A stretch of 45,474 nucleotides of DNA, taken from NCBI GenBank assembly GCA_017519185.1, contig JAFWSX010000015.1, positions 1 to 45,474 on the forward strand. The letters are read 5' to 3'. How positions within the stretch are numbered: the stretch's first letter is position 1; each line of letters opens with the position of its first letter. The stretch comes from Bacteroidales bacterium (GTDB taxonomy: Bacteria > Bacteroidota > Bacteroidia > Bacteroidales > UBA932). The position numbers and the translations under genes were made by a program. Shown here in pieces: positions 1,040-16,168 of this stretch. The notes under the pieces are model-generated. The model worked only from the letters and a program-made list of their open reading frames with translations, had not been told where the DNA came from and did no database searches.

Positions 1040-4000
1040 ATGAAAAAGAATATATACCTTGTTTTAGGCGTTCTCGCCTTCGTTCTGGCCGGATGCCAGA
1101 CTATCGATCAATTATCTCCATACAGAGGGCTTATCGCAGTCATAGAAGGGGCTCAGGATACAAAGACAAGCATCTTCCCTTCCAACCTCTCAAGTTCCGA
1201 CGTCCTGTGGTCCGACGGTGACGAGATCGGCGTCTTCATAGACGATTCATTGGAGCCCGCCACCTTCACCCTTGCTACTGGAGCCGGATCCAAGGTTGCC
1301 ACTTTCACTGGTGAAGGCAACGGCGACAGCTACATTGCGTTCTATCCTCAGTCAATGCTCGATTCCCGCTGGAACAATACTATCAACTTTGACCTTCCGG
1401 CCGAACAGGAGTATGTTCTCGGGACCTTTGCGGACAATGCATTCCCTATGATTGCCGCAAGCAATTCTTCACAGCTGCAGTTCAAGAATCTCTGCTCAGT
1501 CGTCCGCATATCTATGGTCGGCTCTCAGACCATCAGCAAGATTGTCTTCACCGCCAACGATCCTTCCGTAAAGGTCAGCGGCCCGGCGAGCGTGGATGTC
1601 TCTGCCTCCGGCGAGCCTAAGCTCGTGATGGACAGCGATGCCTCCAACAGCGTGACGCTCAACACCGGCAATGTCCAGCTCAGCGAGACCAGCCCCACCG
1701 AATTCTACTTCGTACTCCCGCCCCAAACCTATAAGGGCGGCTTCACCGTAAGTATTTACTCAGGCGACGTATGTATGGAGAAGAAATACGAATCAGATTT
1801 CACGATGGTACGCTCAAGGCTCCACAAAGCCGATCTCTTTGGTTTCGAAGAGCCTGAAGTGATAGAAGGAATAGAGAAATACCTGACTTTCACTTCTGAA
1901 GGCACTTCAACCATAACCCTGGTCAATGAATATGGAGACACTCCCGTGCTATATTACTCATTTGACGGAGAGAACTGGGCCGAGTGGGATTATTCGGAAC
2001 TCAGCTTCTCAACCCTCTACCTCAGTGGAGACAACCCCGGTGGATTCAACACAAATGAATCTCTCAACAGGTTTTCTACAGGAGGGAGCAAATTCAGTGT
2101 ATCTGGTGATATAATGTCCTTGATAGACAATGTGAACGATGTGACTGAGATTCCTTCCCGCAACTGCTTCGCTCAATTGTTCCTGGATTGCTCGAACCTC
2201 ACTGAAGCCCCTGAACTTCCTGCTACTGAACTGAAATCTGGCTGCTATATGTCAATGTTCTCAGGTTGTTCAAGCCTTGTCTCCGCTCCTGTACTTCCTG
2301 CCACTTCCTTGGGTGATGCTTGCTACAATGCAATGTTCCAATGGTGCACAAGCCTCACTGAAGCCCCTGAACTTCCTGCGACCGAAGTCCCGTGGAATGC
2401 TTATGGCTTTATGTTCGAAGGCTGTTCAAGCCTCAGGACCGCACCTGAGCTGCCTGCTACAGACATAGAAAGCTTAGCTTACGAAGTAATGTTCAGGGAT
2501 TGCTCAAGTTTAACGGCTGCGCCTGCCCTTCCTGCGATGACAATTCCTTCTATGGCATACTCGTCAATGTTCGAAGGATGCACCAGCCTGACAGAAGCCC
2601 CGGCGCTTCCGGCAACGACTTTAGGCTCGCAGTGCTACGGCAATATGTTCAAAGGTTGCACAAGTTTGAGGACTGCGCCCGAACTCCCTGCAACAGATAT
2701 CTCATCGTACAGCTACTATGCTATGTTCAGCGGTTGCACCAGCCTGACTGAAGCTCCTGAACTGCCGGCGACTATATTGGCGAAGGGTTGCTACAACTGG
2801 ATGTTCTACAACTGCACCAGCCTGGACGAAGCCCCTGCGCTTCCAGCCACCAAACTGGCTGAAGGTTGCTATATGTGCATGTTCCAGGGTTGTTCAAGTA
2901 TGACAACAGCCCCGGCGCTTCCGGCAACTGATCTGGAGAAGCAATGCTATCAGCAGATGTTCTATGGCTGCACCAGCCTGACCGAAGCCCCGGCGCTTCC
3001 AGCCACCGATTTGGCAGAACGCTGCTATGCTCATATGTTCAACGGCTGCACCAGTCTGACCGAAGCTCCCAAACTTCCCGCAACCGTGATGGTTCCAAAC
3101 TGCTACGGCAGTATGTTCGATGGGTGTACAAGCCTGTCTAAAGCGCCTGAACTCCCGGCAACGACTCTGGCGAACTATTGCTATATGGATATGTTCGGTA
3201 ACTGCACAAGTCTTACCGAGGCCCCGGAACTTCCTGCCACCGAACTGGCAGAAGGTTGCTATTATACGATGTTCTGGAATTGCTCTAACCTCACTACTGC
3301 TCCTGACCTGCCTGCCGAAGAACTGGAACCCTACTGCTATCGCTGGATGTTCGAGGACTGCACAAACCTTAACTATGTGAAGTGCCTTGCCACCGATATA
3401 AGCGCAGAAAACTGTACTGAGGATTGGCTGAACGGCGTTGCATCTTCCGGCACCTTCGTGAAAGCCGCTGGAATGAAAGACTGGACTACCGGCACCAGCG
3501 GCATTCCGGCAGGATGGCAAGTACAAAACGAAGGCGCTATGCCTGAACCCACTCTCGAAGCCATAGATCTGGGACTATCAGTAAAATGGGCCAACTTCAA
3601 TGTAGGGGCAGCAAGTCCTGAAGATTTTGGAGATTACTTTGCCTGGGGTGAAACTTCAACTAAGGCTTCCTACGGTTCATGGTCAAACTACTCCTATGGC
3701 AATGGTTCTAATGACCTTACAAAATACTGCGAATCCGACGGCAAAACTGTTTTGGAAGCGAGTGATGATGCTGCTACTGCAGAATTAGGAAGCTCTTGGC
3801 GTATGCCAACCCACGACGAACTGCAAGAGTTGGTGGATGAATGCACTTGGACTTGGCAATCGAGCGGCGTGCCCGGTTATACGGTAACAGGGCCTAACGG
3901 CAATTCCATTTTTCTGCCAGCGGCTGCACACTCAGCAGGAACTGATGGATTTGGGAATACTGTATTTGGCTTCTATTGGGCCTCAGACATCAACGATGCT

Positions 4001-12177: not shown

Positions 12178-12879
12178 TTATGAAATATTAATTGGATTTT
12201 TCTTGACTATGGCGACAAACTCCTTGAGATAGAAGGGTTCGAAATATGCCACGTCCTCGAACCTTCCGGCGTCGAAGGCAGCCTGGGCGGCAGAGGCCAT
12301 AAAACCTGCCTTCGGCACGCTGGGCACATAGATGCCGTTGGGATGAGGGAATGCATCGGAATACTTTTGGGCACCTGTGCCTATGAAGGCCACCTTCCCG
12401 GCCGAGAGCAGTCCGGCGTAACTTCCGGCATCCAGAATTTTCGCCGAGACCTCTTCCACACACTTGCCAGATGCATCATACACAGCCTGATATACCTCCA
12501 TACGGCGCGCATCAAGCATAGGGACGAAATAGTCCGCACCGGAGCACTGCTCCATCGACATCGCTTCGGCCAGCAGGATTTCCAGGGTCGGAACAGCTAT
12601 GAGCGGCTTGCCGAGGCCGTAGCAGAGTCCTTTGGCAGTCGAAACGCCTACTCGCAGGCCGGTATATGAACCCGGGCCGCTGCTCACCGCGACGGCGTCA
12701 CATTCTTGCATCTGCGCCGAGCATTGTTTAAAAAGCGATTCTATGGCAGGCACCAGCATCGAAGACTGGCGGTTGCTGTCGTCAATGGCAACGGTTCCGA
12801 CCACCTGGCCGTCCTTCGACAAGGCCACTGAGCAGGCCGCGCCGCTGGTTTCTATCGACAATATCAAACTCTGTTTCAT
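12178..12879 (-). CDS. tsaB: tRNA threonylcarbamoyladenosine biosynthesis protein TsaB
   Basis: TsaB is the dimerisation partner of TsaD in making t6A37 of ANN-decoding tRNAs. The 233-aa protein shows the N-terminal L-S-I-E-T-S-G strand and the family signature S-S-G-P-G-S-Y-T-G-L-R-V-G near 70-82. The frame is open 99 bp upstream, but start 12879 (M-K-Q-S-L-I-L) aligns with the family and sits 10 bp downstream of a perfect -7 box; the longer form would run through that promoter. First gene of the tsaB-nfnA-nfnB-djlA unit. Confidence 0.93.
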   Translation of the reverse strand: MKQSLILSIETSGAACSVALSKDGQVVGTVAIDDSNRQSSMLVPAIESLFKQCSAQMQECDAVAVSSGPGSYTGLRVGVSTAKGLCYGLGKPLIAVPTLEILLAEAMSMEQCSGADYFVPMLDARRMEVYQAVYDASGKCVEEVSAKILDAGSYAGLLSAGKVAFIGTGAQKYSDAFPHPNGIYVPSVPKAGFMASAAQAAFDAGRFEDVAYFEPFYLKEFVAIVKKNPINIS

Positions 12880-12888
12880 TACGAGCCT

Positions 12889-12896
12889 CAAAAATA
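12889..12896 (-). promoter_or_regulatory. -7 box of tsaB
   Basis: TATTTTTG on the minus strand fits TAnnTTTG exactly. The G is 10 bp from the A of the tsaB ATG, implying a leader of only a few nucleotides. No clear TTTG -33 element is seen. Confidence 0.55.
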
Positions 12897-12920
12897 AGGT
12901 TTTTTGACCGAATAATCGAT

Positions 12921-12957
12921 AAAAAAGCAGCGGATCCCGCAACCGGAATCCGCCGCT
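12921..12957 (-). terminator. Intrinsic terminator of the double-glycine peptide operon
   Basis: Arms 12945-12957 and 12926-12938 form a 13-bp GC-rich stem (two G-U pairs) with the loop GGTTGC; six T follow on the minus strand (12921-12926). It begins 20 bp after the stop of the 53-aa peptide gene and isolates the locus from tsaB. Confidence 0.88.
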
Positions 12958-12977
12958 GGCTGGGGAGAAAACTGTCA

Positions 12978-13139
12978 TCAGGCAACAGGCACCTTAGGAC
13001 CGAATATAAGTCTTACGACCCTCCCCACGAAAAAAGCGAGATTGTAGAGCAACTCCTTGAGACTGCCGTCCACACCTCCTACAACAAGCACCGCCTCCCC
13101 GGCGCTTATTTCTGCGAAACAATCTTTCCAGGTCTTCAT
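12978..13139 (-). CDS. Small double-glycine leader peptide A (53 aa), putative exported peptide
   Basis: A 53-aa frame from ATG at 13139 to TGA at 12978-12980. Residues 11-22 read I-S-A-G-E-A-V-L-V-V-G-G, matching the double-glycine leader pattern L-S-x-x-E-L-x-x-I-x-G-G cut by C39 peptidases. Cleavage after Gly22 would release a 31-residue peptide starting V-D-G-S-L-K-E-L-L, with an amphipathic helix, basic residues (K28, R40, R43) and a hydrophobic tail ending P-V-A. No cysteine or obvious modification site lies in the mature part. It follows peptide B by 16 bp and is last before the terminator; the C39 transporter is in the same unit. A bacteriocin-like or signalling peptide is inferred. 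No homologue is recognised by eye. Confidence 0.72.
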   Translation of the reverse strand: MKTWKDCFAEISAGEAVLVVGGVDGSLKELLYNLAFFVGRVVRLIFGPKVPVA

Positions 13140-13155
13140 AATACGGTTCTCCCTT

Positions 13156-13347
13156 CTAGTAGCCGTAAGTGTAACCGTCGTGATAGCCTTTCACGATAGA
13201 CGACCAGTAATTTTTCACAAAGGCGCATACCGCCACCGTGATCTCCAGGATTTTCCTGAGCATTTCACCGGTGGAACCGCCCCTGATACCAAGCTCGGAA
13301 GAAGATATCAACTCCAGTCCGATCTCATTCATTCTTTTTTCTTCCAT
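13156..13347 (-). CDS. Small double-glycine leader peptide B (63 aa), putative exported peptide
   Basis: From ATG at 13347, 63 aa. The leader ends S-S-S-E-L-G-I-R-G-G at Gly24; the mature 39 residues would begin S-T-G-E-M-L-R-K-I-L, form an amphipathic helix, hold one cysteine (C41) and end in an aromatic tail (H-D-G-Y-T-Y-G-Y). An upstream in-frame start at 13419 would overlap the transporter gene and gives residues unlike a leader, so it was not used; ATG at 13332 is a second possibility. The gene lies 58 bp downstream of the C39 transporter and 16 bp before peptide A. Function as a bacteriocin or signal is inferred from leader and context. Confidence 0.75.
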   Translation of the reverse strand: MEEKRMNEIGLELISSSELGIRGGSTGEMLRKILEITVAVCAFVKNYWSSIVKGYHDGYTYGY

Positions 13348-13372
13348 GGTAATTGTATAGGTTAAGTTTTCC

Positions 13373-13399
13373 GCCTGCAAGTTCAAGGGGTGTGCAGGC
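13373..13399 (-). other. Intercistronic stem-loop between transporter and peptide genes
   Basis: Perfect 7-bp arms GCCTGCA and TGCAGGC enclose a 13-nt loop in the 58-bp gap before peptide B. There is no U-run after it, so it is not a terminator; mRNA processing or protection of the peptide message is possible. Confidence 0.5.
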
Positions 13400-13405
13400 C
13401 TCACC

Positions 13406-15496
13406 CTATGAGCGCGCACTCATTTCTATGACTTTATCGGCCATTGCCAGATTGTCCTTCTTGTGGGTGATCATCACCACTGTCATCCCATCATCGGCAA
13501 GACGGCGCACGGAATTGAGGATGACCGCCTCGCTCGCGCTGTCGAGCGATGAAGTCGCTTCATCCAGGACAAGGATTCGGGGCCTGCGGTAGAGCGCCCT
13601 TGCAAGGGCTATGCGCTGCTTCTGCCCGCCCGAAAGGGAAGAGCCCCGTTCCCCCACCCTGGTCATCAGTCCCATCGGGAGCGACGCCACGAAATCCTGC
13701 ATCCCGAGCGTGACGACAAGCTGCGCGATGCGCTCCAGATCGGGGTCTTTCTCCCCTCCCGTGATGTTGTCCATCACAGTGGCGTTCAGCAACACGCAGT
13801 CCTGCGGCACCAGGGCGGTCCTGTTCCTCCACTGCCTCAAGCCGTAAAGCGAGACATCGACTCCATCCAGGGTTATGCTGCCTTTCAGAGGCTTGTATCC
13901 GCGCATCATCAGCGCGGCCAGGGTGCTTTTGCCGCAGCCGCTGTCACCGGTCACAGCCGTAATCCTTCCGGGCTCGAAAGTGGCGCTGAAATGCTCGATG
14001 AGGGAGTTGCAGCCAGGATAGGAGAAACTGACGTCGCTGAAGGCAAGGTTTCCTGCAATGTCCGGCACATCCGCCCCCTGCTCGTCCTCCCCTTCGAAGT
14101 CCATTATCTCGAAGAGCCTCCCGGCCGAAACCTTCGCCTCGGTGTAACTGTTGTTGAGTTCCACGATCTGCCCCATCGGCGCCGAGAACAGGGTGACCAT
14201 AGAGTAAAACGACACCAGTTCTCCCACGCTGAGTTCTCCGCCGAAAACGAACATCGACCCGGCGCAGAGCAGAGTTATGGTGAGCGCCTTTGAGACTGTC
14301 TCGGTAGTCTCGGAAAATATTCCGGCCCAGCGTCCTCCCTTCAGCATCCGCCCGCAGAGCTTGGCGTATCGCCGGTCTATACCTGTGATGACGGCCTTTT
14401 CGGCGCACATATACTTTATTGTACCGATCGCCGCTATTCCTTCGACTGTCTTCTCCTCGAACGCCGCAGAAGCCTCGATGATGTCTCTGTTCGCCTTTTT
14501 GTTCACCTTGTTGGAAACAATGTACACGGCGGCGTACAGTGGGATAAACATCAGCATCAATAAGGCAAGTTTCCAATAATATGTGAACATCAAGGCGAAT
14601 GAGACTGCAAGAGTGCATACGCTGAGCATCAGCGTGGTAAGTCCGGTGACTATGAAAGAACGTATCTTCATCGCATCGTAGACCCTCGAGGCCAGCTCGC
14701 CGCTGCCGCGGAGTGTGAAAAAGCCGGCCGGCAGGGTAAAAAGATGATGCAGGTAGTCCGTCACGAGAGAATAGTCTATGCCTAAGGATGCCTGCAGGGC
14801 CGACATCACCCTTCCGTAGCCGCAGGCGAAAGCAAGGACGGCGAGCAGCGCCATAACTGCCGACAGCACTGCCAGGGATGAAACCGACCCGGACGGAATC
14901 ACGTCATCGACTATCCGCTGCAGGAATATCGAGGTGCTGAGGGATATAATTATATACAGCATCGACGCCGCAAGCGTGAGGGCGAGCTGCCTGCCGTAGA
15001 TTCTCGTGACGCCTGCCAGCCTGCGGACCGGACTTACAGTGCGGTCTCCCTTCTCGAACTTGTCTCCCGGTTCGCACAGGACCACATATCCGCTCCACTG
15101 ACGGCCGATCCACTCTTCAGTCACCGTTTCCAGTTTCCCCTTTGCAGGATCCATTATCACAAAGCCTTTATGGCTGACAGCGCTCAGGACCACGAAATGG
15201 AGCCATCCTTCGTCTGTCTCAAGATGGAGGATGGCAGGCCTGGGCACGTGAGCCAGCGCCCCTATGTCCCTCGCAGCCGATTTGTAGGCCTTCGCTTCCA
15301 GACCGATGGCGCCGCATCCGTCAAGGACTCCTTTTATGGAAGTGCCCTGCGACGTCGCCCCGCACATCTGCCTTAAGGTCACGAGAGGCAGGCTGAGGCC
15401 GTACCATCTCGCCACCCACGCGATGCAGGCGACTGCACAGTCTGCAGCGTCGTGCTGCCTGATTCCCTTTACCGATATATCCTTTCTGCTTTTCAT
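13406..15496 (-). CDS. C39-peptidase-containing ABC transporter (peptide processing and export)
   Basis: This 696-aa protein joins three parts on one chain. Residues 1-130 are a C39 cysteine peptidase with Q14, C20 (Q-H-D-A-A-D-C), H100 (L-H-F-V-V) and D116 (M-D-P-A-K-G), all catalytic positions present. Residues about 155-440 are a six-helix ABC membrane domain. Residues about 480-696 are the ATPase: Walker A G-C-G-K-S-T with K523, signature L-S-G-G-Q-K-Q-R and Walker B L-V-L-D-E-A-T-S-S-L-D. Such proteins cut double-glycine leaders and export the core. The start ATG at 15496 was preferred over GTG at 15538 because C39 domains begin close to the cysteine and a -7-like box sits just upstream. 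Two double-glycine peptides follow. No HlyD-type adaptor is adjacent, unusual for export from a diderm. Confidence 0.93.
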   Translation of the reverse strand: MKSRKDISVKGIRQHDAADCAVACIAWVARWYGLSLPLVTLRQMCGATSQGTSIKGVLDGCGAIGLEAKAYKSAARDIGALAHVPRPAILHLETDEGWLHFVVLSAVSHKGFVIMDPAKGKLETVTEEWIGRQWSGYVVLCEPGDKFEKGDRTVSPVRRLAGVTRIYGRQLALTLAASMLYIIISLSTSIFLQRIVDDVIPSGSVSSLAVLSAVMALLAVLAFACGYGRVMSALQASLGIDYSLVTDYLHHLFTLPAGFFTLRGSGELASRVYDAMKIRSFIVTGLTTLMLSVCTLAVSFALMFTYYWKLALLMLMFIPLYAAVYIVSNKVNKKANRDIIEASAAFEEKTVEGIAAIGTIKYMCAEKAVITGIDRRYAKLCGRMLKGGRWAGIFSETTETVSKALTITLLCAGSMFVFGGELSVGELVSFYSMVTLFSAPMGQIVELNNSYTEAKVSAGRLFEIMDFEGEDEQGADVPDIAGNLAFSDVSFSYPGCNSLIEHFSATFEPGRITAVTGDSGCGKSTLAALMMRGYKPLKGSITLDGVDVSLYGLRQWRNRTALVPQDCVLLNATVMDNITGGEKDPDLERIAQLVVTLGMQDFVASLPMGLMTRVGERGSSLSGGQKQRIALARALYRRPRILVLDEATSSLDSASEAVILNSVRRLADDGMTVVMITHKKDNLAMADKVIEMSARS

Positions 15497-15504
15497 TGTC
15501 TCCA

Positions 15505-15512
15505 CAAAGAAA
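15505..15512 (-). promoter_or_regulatory. Weak -7-like box before the C39 transporter
   Basis: TTTCTTTG on the minus strand differs from TAnnTTTG at one position and ends 9 bp before the ATG at 15496. No convincing -33 element. The 147-bp gap 15497-15643 back to cvpA holds no gene; a T-rich stretch at 15610-15630 could help end cvpA transcription. Confidence 0.3.
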
Positions 15513-15643
15513 CGGGAGTCTTCCGTCCCTGCGGGCACCGCTTCTCCCCCTCCGTCAAGAAGCCGGCGCAGTCATCCCCGCGCTCCCGTTTGCAGGAGCA
15601 AAATAGGGCAATAAAAACAGAAAAAAAGAGAGCCTAGCGACAA

Positions 15644-16168
15644 TTATGCAGCTATTGTCGGAGCAGGCGCAGTTTGCTGTTGTTGGATTATCGACTTCAA
15701 AGCTGGAAATACCTTGTCGGCAAAATCCAGAAGTGGCTTGAAAAAATTGGAATTCGCAAGATCGTCCTCGCTGATGAACTCGAGAAGCTCGTTTGCAGAG
15801 TTCAGGAAGTATGCCAGCAGGCTCAGAACCACGGCAACCTTGAGCATAGAGAAGACGATGCCGAGCAGACGGTCGAGCCATCCGAGCATAGTGACCTTGA
15901 TGACCACGCTGAGCAGTTTCTCGACCAGCGCCCCAACCAGCGCCACGGCTATGAAAACCACTGCGAAGCTAATGACCGAAATCCAGACCGGCTGGAGCTC
16001 TACGCGGCTCTGCAGCCATTCGGCGACGTGGGCACTCAGGGAGATGGAAAGCTTGATGCCCAGAACTATGATTATGAGGGAAATTACCTGCTTTATGAAA
16101 CCGTTTTTAGCCCCGAAGTAAAGCGAAGGCAGAAAACAGCAGATTATGACGATGTCTATTATGCCCAT
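15644..16168 (-). CDS. cvpA: CvpA family membrane protein
   Basis: The 174-aa protein has four hydrophobic segments (about 5-25, 28-50, 62-85, 100-122), the start I-D-I-V-I-I near residues 4-9 and the G-x-x-x-G-F-I-K-Q-V turn near 19-27 typical of CvpA. The C-terminus is a Q- and P/A-rich tail. CvpA was named for its need in colicin V production in E. coli, and is otherwise linked to envelope stress and bile tolerance; its biochemical role is unclear. Here it is the gene just upstream, on the same strand, of a CvaB-type C39 transporter, though 147 bp apart. It has its own good promoter overlapping that of ileS. Confidence 0.85.
   Translation of the reverse strand: MGIIDIVIICCFLPSLYFGAKNGFIKQVISLIIIVLGIKLSISLSAHVAEWLQSRVELQPVWISVISFAVVFIAVALVGALVEKLLSVVIKVTMLGWLDRLLGIVFSMLKVAVVLSLLAYFLNSANELLEFISEDDLANSNFFKPLLDFADKVFPALKSIIQQQQTAPAPTIAA

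Follow-up and report, generated by a model that had tools for sequence, protein, structure and literature searches.

Class IIb bacteriocins comprise two peptides with double-glycine (GG) leaders that are encoded with a C39 exporter. In two-peptide bacteriocins such as plantaricin S and lactococcin G, the cores are helical and carry GxxxG or GxxxG-like motifs, according to the passages of PMC6382864 that describe them. Export of colicin V is outlined in a section of PMC10352776 as involving a C39 transporter, a membrane fusion protein and TolC. The Bacteroidetocins of the Bacteroidales are presented in excerpts of PMC6671954 as single peptides with four cysteines and a leader of 15-16 amino acids (aa), encoded with a C39 transporter, a transmembrane (TM) protein and, mostly, a thiol oxidoreductase gene; in these excerpts the four-gene locus is given with no HlyD/TolC and no immunity gene named, and an immunity gene and perhaps active outer-membrane release can be lacking. 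The locus described here lies on a stretch of 45,474 nucleotides (nt) from a Bacteroidales bacterium of the family UBA932 (contig JAFWSX010000015.1 of assembly GCA_017519185.1), the whole of which is referred to below as the window. On its minus strand, a gene for a C39 peptidase-containing ABC transporter (PCAT) is followed by genes for two small GG-leader peptides, here named A and B. We read this locus, with a probability of roughly 0.6, as a unit of two exported peptides, with an RNA leader acting in cis and with peptide cores that would act jointly as membrane helices. The coding part of the unit consists of:

13406..15496, minus strand: PCAT of 696 aa, identified by its Pfam domains and catalytic residues
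13156..13347, minus strand: precursor of peptide A, 63 aa, with GG at residues 23-24, giving a 24-aa leader and a 39-aa core with GxxxG
12978..13139, minus strand: precursor of peptide B, 53 aa, with GG at residues 21-22, giving a 22-aa leader and a 31-aa core with AxxxG

The pairing of transporter and peptides was found to be conserved among relatives. After removal of duplicates L012 and L041, 106 transporter loci were compared (one from another family; three from one genome), and A and B were present directly 3' of the transporter in 95 of them, in 92 cases by profile search and in three with B identified by profile and the A frame by eye. Neither peptide was found in the remaining 11 loci; five of these 11 were placed in the transporter tree, where they form one group, three of them with an adaptor-like gene upstream of the transporter (cluster c3). 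Within the window's clade (W, the locus of the window, and L003-L009; eight loci, all pairs), A, B and the transporter are under purifying selection, with mean ratios of nonsynonymous to synonymous differences (pN/pS) of 0.27, 0.29 and 0.23, respectively. The cores are under tighter constraint than the leaders (A, 0.25 vs 0.34; B, 0.23 vs 0.40), all of these ratios being approximate, with some synonymous distances saturated. The original prediction had proposed, from the window alone, a C39 transporter paired with two double-glycine peptides encoded by small frames of 63 and 53 aa. The coordinates and GG sites of both frames were recovered, and the pairing withstood the two checks set for it, namely conservation beside the transporter in relatives and synonymous-biased substitution in both peptide frames.

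Peptidase_C39, ABC_membrane and ABC_tran domains occur in one transporter chain, all above Pfam cut-offs, which places the protein among the PCATs. The intact peptidase claimed for it was confirmed: catalytic residues Q14, C20, H100 and D116 are all present in the window and are conserved across the 106 loci (Q in 105 and C in 105, one gap each; H in 106; D in 105, with one N), the gap at C belonging to L009, whose contig begins at transporter residue 25. This protein is the only C39 match (PF03412, E 0.001) in the 2.2-Mb, 37-contig genome, and its best-matching solved PCAT structure is 4ry2 with its sister entries (E 5e-111). It scored below the curated NCBIfam cut-offs of TIGR01193 (bacteriocin_ABC; 364.1 vs 523.85) and TIGR03796 (NHLM_micro_ABC1; 388.2 vs 853.3). 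The C39 domain would be expected to cut A after Gly24 and B after Gly22, and the transporter to export both cores. Selenocysteine or other recoding in the transporter was considered for 12 rows flagged with one TGA inside (L010 and L012-L022) and was rejected: in L012-L022 the TGA is the gene's own stop, with a small number of additional residues aligned beyond it. Only L010, a locus also listed as L039, has an in-frame TGA at the Walker A cysteine position, in one metagenome-assembled genome (MAG), which is probably a mutation or an assembly error. Further transporter stops were flagged in other loci of the family-wide genome search.

Protein alignments and motif counts were made with 24 rows for each peptide, chosen from 30 loci. 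In the A core, G54 and G58 of the GxxxG motif are invariant, and the motif was present in 24/24 cores, compared with 4.8 expected from shuffled cores. The B core possesses AxxxG in the window and strict GxxxG in 18 of the 24 rows (4.2 expected), with G39 invariant throughout; GxxxG-like motifs were present in 24/24 B cores (11.1 expected). AlphaFold predicted, with modest confidence, one long helix in the core of each peptide, and the two cores would act together as a pair of membrane helices in the manner of two-peptide (class IIb) systems. No cysteine column is conserved in the aligned cores. Searches of A and B against Pfam, NCBIfam and PADLOC gave no convincing family match, while single B relatives showed weak NCBIfam matches, two of them of bacteriocin type (CTB family, E 0.008; lichenicidin A2 family, E 0.05). 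In L012-L022, a cysteine stands just before the GG site of A (CGG) and the B leader mostly has ECC; the window's clade does not possess these leader cysteines.

Small H-type pseudoknots located in the 5' leader near the start codon are known from cis-regulatory RNAs such as preQ1-I. Close relatives of the window share a hairpin, its centre mostly palindromic, between the transporter and A, followed by an H-type pseudoknot that ends about 21 nt ahead of the A start codon. In the window, these elements are:

13408..13423, minus strand: hairpin ATGAGTGCGCGCTCAT (6-bp stem with one G-U pair and a GCGC tip), overlapping the 3' end of the transporter gene, its arms covarying between lineages
13373..13406, minus strand: predicted H-type pseudoknot, from covariation and geometry search
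13402-13406 with 13388-13392, minus strand: pseudoknot stem S1, GGGTG/CACCC
13393-13399 with 13373-13379, minus strand: pseudoknot stem S2, GCCTGCA/TGCAGGC

The pseudoknot of the window reads GGGTG-AG-GCCTGCA-CACCC-CTTGAACT-TGCAGGC and ends 25 nt upstream of the A start codon. Among relatives, the hairpin arms change together (ATGAGTGCGC[AG]CTCAT, GTGAATGCGCATTCAC, TCCGTGCGCACGGA, CTGATGCGCATCAG and others), and among the 67 leaders scoring 24 or more, S2 is formed by 44 distinct pairs of sequences. From 91 distinct leaders, five were dropped before alignment (L120, L184, L185, L197 and L201) and 25 more, which were near-alike, were picked out by hand, leaving 61 of 86 aligned; all 91 were used for geometry searches, and the 83 with a pseudoknot for the palindrome count. 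In the plain alignment of these 61, the share of cells that pair is 76.6% (62.0% when shuffled) and covariation is 0.405 (0.174 when shuffled), with 0/500 shuffles as high for either measure; some groups are aligned out of register, which lowers both figures. Pairing falls to 33-46% when partners are slid by one to three columns. Within the genus (21 sequences), 93.8% of cells pair, compared with 85.8% in shuffles. The geometry search placed a pseudoknot ending 14-29 nt before the ATG in 83/91 leaders and in 50/1820 dinucleotide shuffles; a rule with shorter loops and free position found one in 62/91 leaders and 10/1820 shuffles. At a score of 28 or more, the start of A stood alone among the 213 ATG starts of window open reading frames of at least 40 aa. 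Upstream of the pseudoknot, 42/83 leaders contain a perfect palindrome of 12 or more bases, compared with 10/1660 shuffles. Those of at least 8 bases occur in 60/83 leaders and are centred on TGCGCA (44), ACCGGT (6), CGCGCG (5), TGTACA (2) or others (3); the other 23 leaders possess no perfect palindrome of this length, and the window's own hairpin includes one G-U pair.

Searching positions 12800-15700 of the window against Rfam gave no match at gathering score and four sub-threshold matches (up to E 10), none of them over the element; the same search of 11 relatives gave one tRNA only. Judged by its covariation, the leader is a predicted structured RNA outside Rfam, newly described here and absent from the original prediction. 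It differs from preQ1-I-type RNAs in this lack of an Rfam match and in a second stem so variable in sequence that no fixed ligand-binding core stands out. The distance from the transporter stop to the A start ranges from 4 to 258 nt, and A occupies each of the three frames (32, 29 and 28; n=89 of 91 leaders). As neither distance nor frame is constrained, the RNA goes with the start of A rather than with recoding, and a frameshift or stop-codon role of the pseudoknot was ruled out on these figures. Hairpin and pseudoknot would act in cis to set the ratio of peptide to transporter, with translation start or mRNA stability as the most likely point of control. RNA model R1, run over 41 genomes, gave no second strong match in any of them; 20 of its 21 strong matches are its own training sequences, and it informs solely on extra copies. 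Among distant Bacteroidota loci (L044-L111), two isolated matches were seen at candidate GG-peptide starts and were judged chance-like by eye, without shuffles. In L119/L028 (genome G028), near-identical ATTATGAG repeats form a long array that separates the transporter stop from the pseudoknot.

The usual gene order in relatives is transporter, A, B, TolC, HlyD, TsaB. Downstream sequence extends for at least 4.1 kb in 78 of the loci that have A or B; a TolC-like outer-membrane efflux protein and an HlyD-like adaptor are encoded 3' of B in 76 of these, and TsaB in 74 (gene names from Pfam). The two exceptions are the window, where HlyD and TolC genes are absent beside the transporter, and L191, whose surrounding genes are different. 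The TsaB match of W and L003-L009 starts about 490-550 nt past the end of the transporter match, right behind B. A transporter tree of 44 loci chosen by hand placed the eight loci without TolC and HlyD in one clade (support 100/99) nested among loci with both genes, so that one loss is the simplest reading; as read from this tree, the missing HlyD and TolC are a derived, secondary loss in the window's clade. The original prediction had described a self-contained exported-peptide system lacking an HlyD adaptor. The transporter-peptide unit stands and the adaptor is truly missing from the locus, but most relatives continue into TolC and HlyD, and the lack appears to be a derived loss and not the original design.

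When the adaptor of L125 was compared with 23 genomes of the genus, 13 had a match at 38-100% identity, nine (that of the window and eight others with close transporters) had nothing above 30%, and G007 (73% complete) had no match; the best match in the window genome was at 28% identity. This genome holds four HlyD_3 matches with TolC-like (OEP) matches near each, and the surrounding reading frames make these sites look like separate efflux operons. At L233 of the same genome (G000:C27, about 2459-3829), the TolC-like gene that precedes an HlyD-like gene is split by a TAG. Five stretches from other loci were chosen for matching the adaptor: L217, L218, L220 and L221, from four other Bacteroidales families, contain the TolC-HlyD-TsaB trio with no transporter match in the stretch, and L219 contains TolC and HlyD and no TsaB. 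The occurrence of the trio without a C39 gene in other families suggests that the C39-A-B unit may have been added upstream of an older TolC-HlyD pair. At L191, the transporter is followed by A and a weak B frame and by none of TolC, HlyD and TsaB, perhaps through a second separation from the exit genes that arose independently. The retention of peptides and transporter after loss of the neighbouring outer-membrane exit suggests that the product of the window's clade probably either acts in the periplasm or inner membrane or exits in some other way.

The order on the minus strand of the window is CvpA-like gene, transporter, A, B, terminator-like hairpin and TsaB-like gene, of which the flanking features are:

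15644..16168, minus strand: CvpA-like gene upstream of the transporter (PF02674)
12957-12926, minus strand: intrinsic-terminator-like hairpin 3' of peptide B, 14 pairs (9 G-C) and then a T run
12178..12879, minus strand: TsaB-like gene directly after B (PF00814; the name TsaB is read from this match and the gene size)

The hairpin with its T run is terminator-like, in line with the strong terminator predicted after the two frames; over the 4.5-kb stretch as a whole, terminator-like sites show no excess (3 found vs 4.2 expected). The genes adjoining the unit are CvpA-, IleS- and TsaB-like by Pfam, and the intergenic gaps beside it measure about 100 nt (B to TsaB) and about 150 nt (CvpA to transporter). 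The predicted lack of a modification enzyme and of an obvious immunity gene holds for these immediate surroundings; the gaps leave no room in the locus for an immunity protein gene, the rest of the genome not having been searched for one. The CvpA-like neighbour recurs in genus loci with enough flank, and the neighbours of the locus are constant across the genus; certain other genera have different genes upstream.

Nine of the first 12 matches in a collection of named genomes are Bacteroidales MAGs from the rumen, reticulum or omasum of yak, water buffalo and goat. Transporter matches at E 1e-60 or better were found in 46 of 60 genomes (own included), among them all 25 other genomes of the genus, and matches at 1e-100 in 157 of 249 family genomes, again with its own. 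When 393 genomes of the order were searched with a profile of B, the matches were the window, a single further family member and two weak ones elsewhere; this search underestimates, having missed at least G035 and G078, whose B was found at the locus. The viral collection, searched with the transporter only, held no close relatives of it, and the best 5000 plasmid records matching the transporter all showed less than 60% identity. Among the matches listed from the open-access PubMed Central literature, judged by title and opening of the abstract, neither the peptide pair nor a pseudoknot leader of double-glycine peptides is described.

Comparison with the described systems shows the locus to resemble class IIb in its two adjacent GG-leader peptides with a C39 exporter and in the GxxxG or GxxxG-like motifs of both predicted helical cores (24/24 rows for each peptide). 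It differs in its Gram-negative host, in the lack of a dedicated immunity protein gene in the locus, in its conserved chromosomal place, in the additional pseudoknot leader and in having no convincing family match. The Bacteroidetocins, as far as the excerpts cited above describe them, share with it the Bacteroidales host, the C39 transporter and a locus for which no HlyD/TolC or immunity gene is named. Instead of a single cysteine-rich peptide with a leader of 15-16 aa, however, the window encodes two peptides with leaders of 22-24 aa and no conserved core cysteine column, and neither the TM protein nor the thiol oxidoreductase gene is adjacent. The usual locus of this family holds all three parts of the colicin V type, whereas the window's clade has lost TolC and HlyD from the locus, and the window lacks the HlyD and TolC of its own that mark tripartite type I export; a further difference is that, in four other families, the trio of TolC, HlyD and TsaB occurs on stretches that contain no C39 gene.

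The reading to which we commit is that the exported unit would act on a membrane, that of a competitor, a sister cell or the producer. Were A and B released to kill competing bacteria jointly, as a two-peptide bacteriocin, the adjacent GG-leader peptides, the GxxxG-type motifs in both cores and the C39 exporter would all fit, and such a role is credible, at somewhat under even odds. The place of the locus is fixed beside the same genes in the genus, however, and the transporter tree separates clades cleanly, neither of which is expected of an accessory bacteriocin; the cores also evolve slowly, the locus has no immunity gene, and the window's clade has lost its neighbouring outer-membrane exit. 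These last two absences do not rule out a toxin, as Bacteroidetocins can lack an immunity gene and perhaps active outer-membrane release, and these double-glycine toxins of Bacteroides, likewise without an immunity gene, inhibit their own producers (excerpts of PMC6671954). A role as signals, perceived by cells of the same species or by the envelope of the producer itself, would suit the fixed neighbourhood, the lack of an immunity gene in the locus and the strong constraint on the cores, but no sensor gene was recognised in the loci (not every neighbour was annotated). Two co-conserved helical peptides with GxxxG are, furthermore, unusual for a pheromone, and a signalling role is regarded as rather doubtful. 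The window's clade could instead be a decaying relic: TolC and HlyD are gone from the locus in 8/8 members, and nine genus genomes with close transporters, that of the window included, show no adaptor match above 30% identity. This explanation is largely refuted, given that the A and B frames are intact in 8/8, that no transporter of the eight has an internal stop (L009 being cut by a contig end) and that pN/pS is 0.23-0.29.

It was also considered that the palindrome, or both leader elements, could be a DNA site (an operator or other protein site) and not RNA. The palindrome centre is varied but symmetric, as would fit a dimeric DNA-binding protein, or an RNA tip pairing with another copy. 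The pseudoknot is not symmetric DNA, both of its crossing stems covary and it keeps its distance to the start codon, making a DNA site quite unlikely. Several observations weigh against the exported two-peptide unit with an RNA leader that is preferred here. Related sequences can beat shuffles of the kind used here without structure, and pairs changed on both sides were matched by 17/500 shuffles for the 61 leaders and 5/500 for the genus, and further pair types by 18/500 within the genus. Under the geometry rule, 8/91 leaders have no pseudoknot, and chance alone would give a pseudoknot to about 2 to 3 of 91, judging from the 50/1820 shuffles. The folding energy of the window leader is ordinary (z -0.44, from a program that cannot score a pseudoknot), the mean AlphaFold confidence for the A and B models is just 67-68, and the window's clade may borrow HlyD and TolC genes found elsewhere in its genome.

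A bolder reading, which we hold to be unlikely, sees in the leader a new class of cis-acting RNA, made up of a hairpin with a palindromic tip and an H-type pseudoknot with almost no sequence constraint on its second stem. This RNA would serve exclusively a core two-peptide export system found in one Bacteroidales family, with peptides that would act on the producer's own envelope and not on rivals. The hairpin tip is self-complementary in most leaders and may pair two transcripts. If the peptides did act on the producer's own envelope, this would account for how one clade could drop the outer-membrane exit and keep the rest. The peptide pair is co-conserved and family-wide in uncultured Bacteroidales, many of them from the rumen, with no convincing match in Pfam, NCBIfam or PADLOC, and the strongly covarying pseudoknot, absent from Rfam, is located at the start of an exported-peptide gene. 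The clade without TolC and HlyD provides a natural experiment that asks whether, in Gram-negative bacteria, double-glycine peptides need to exit the cell to be of use.

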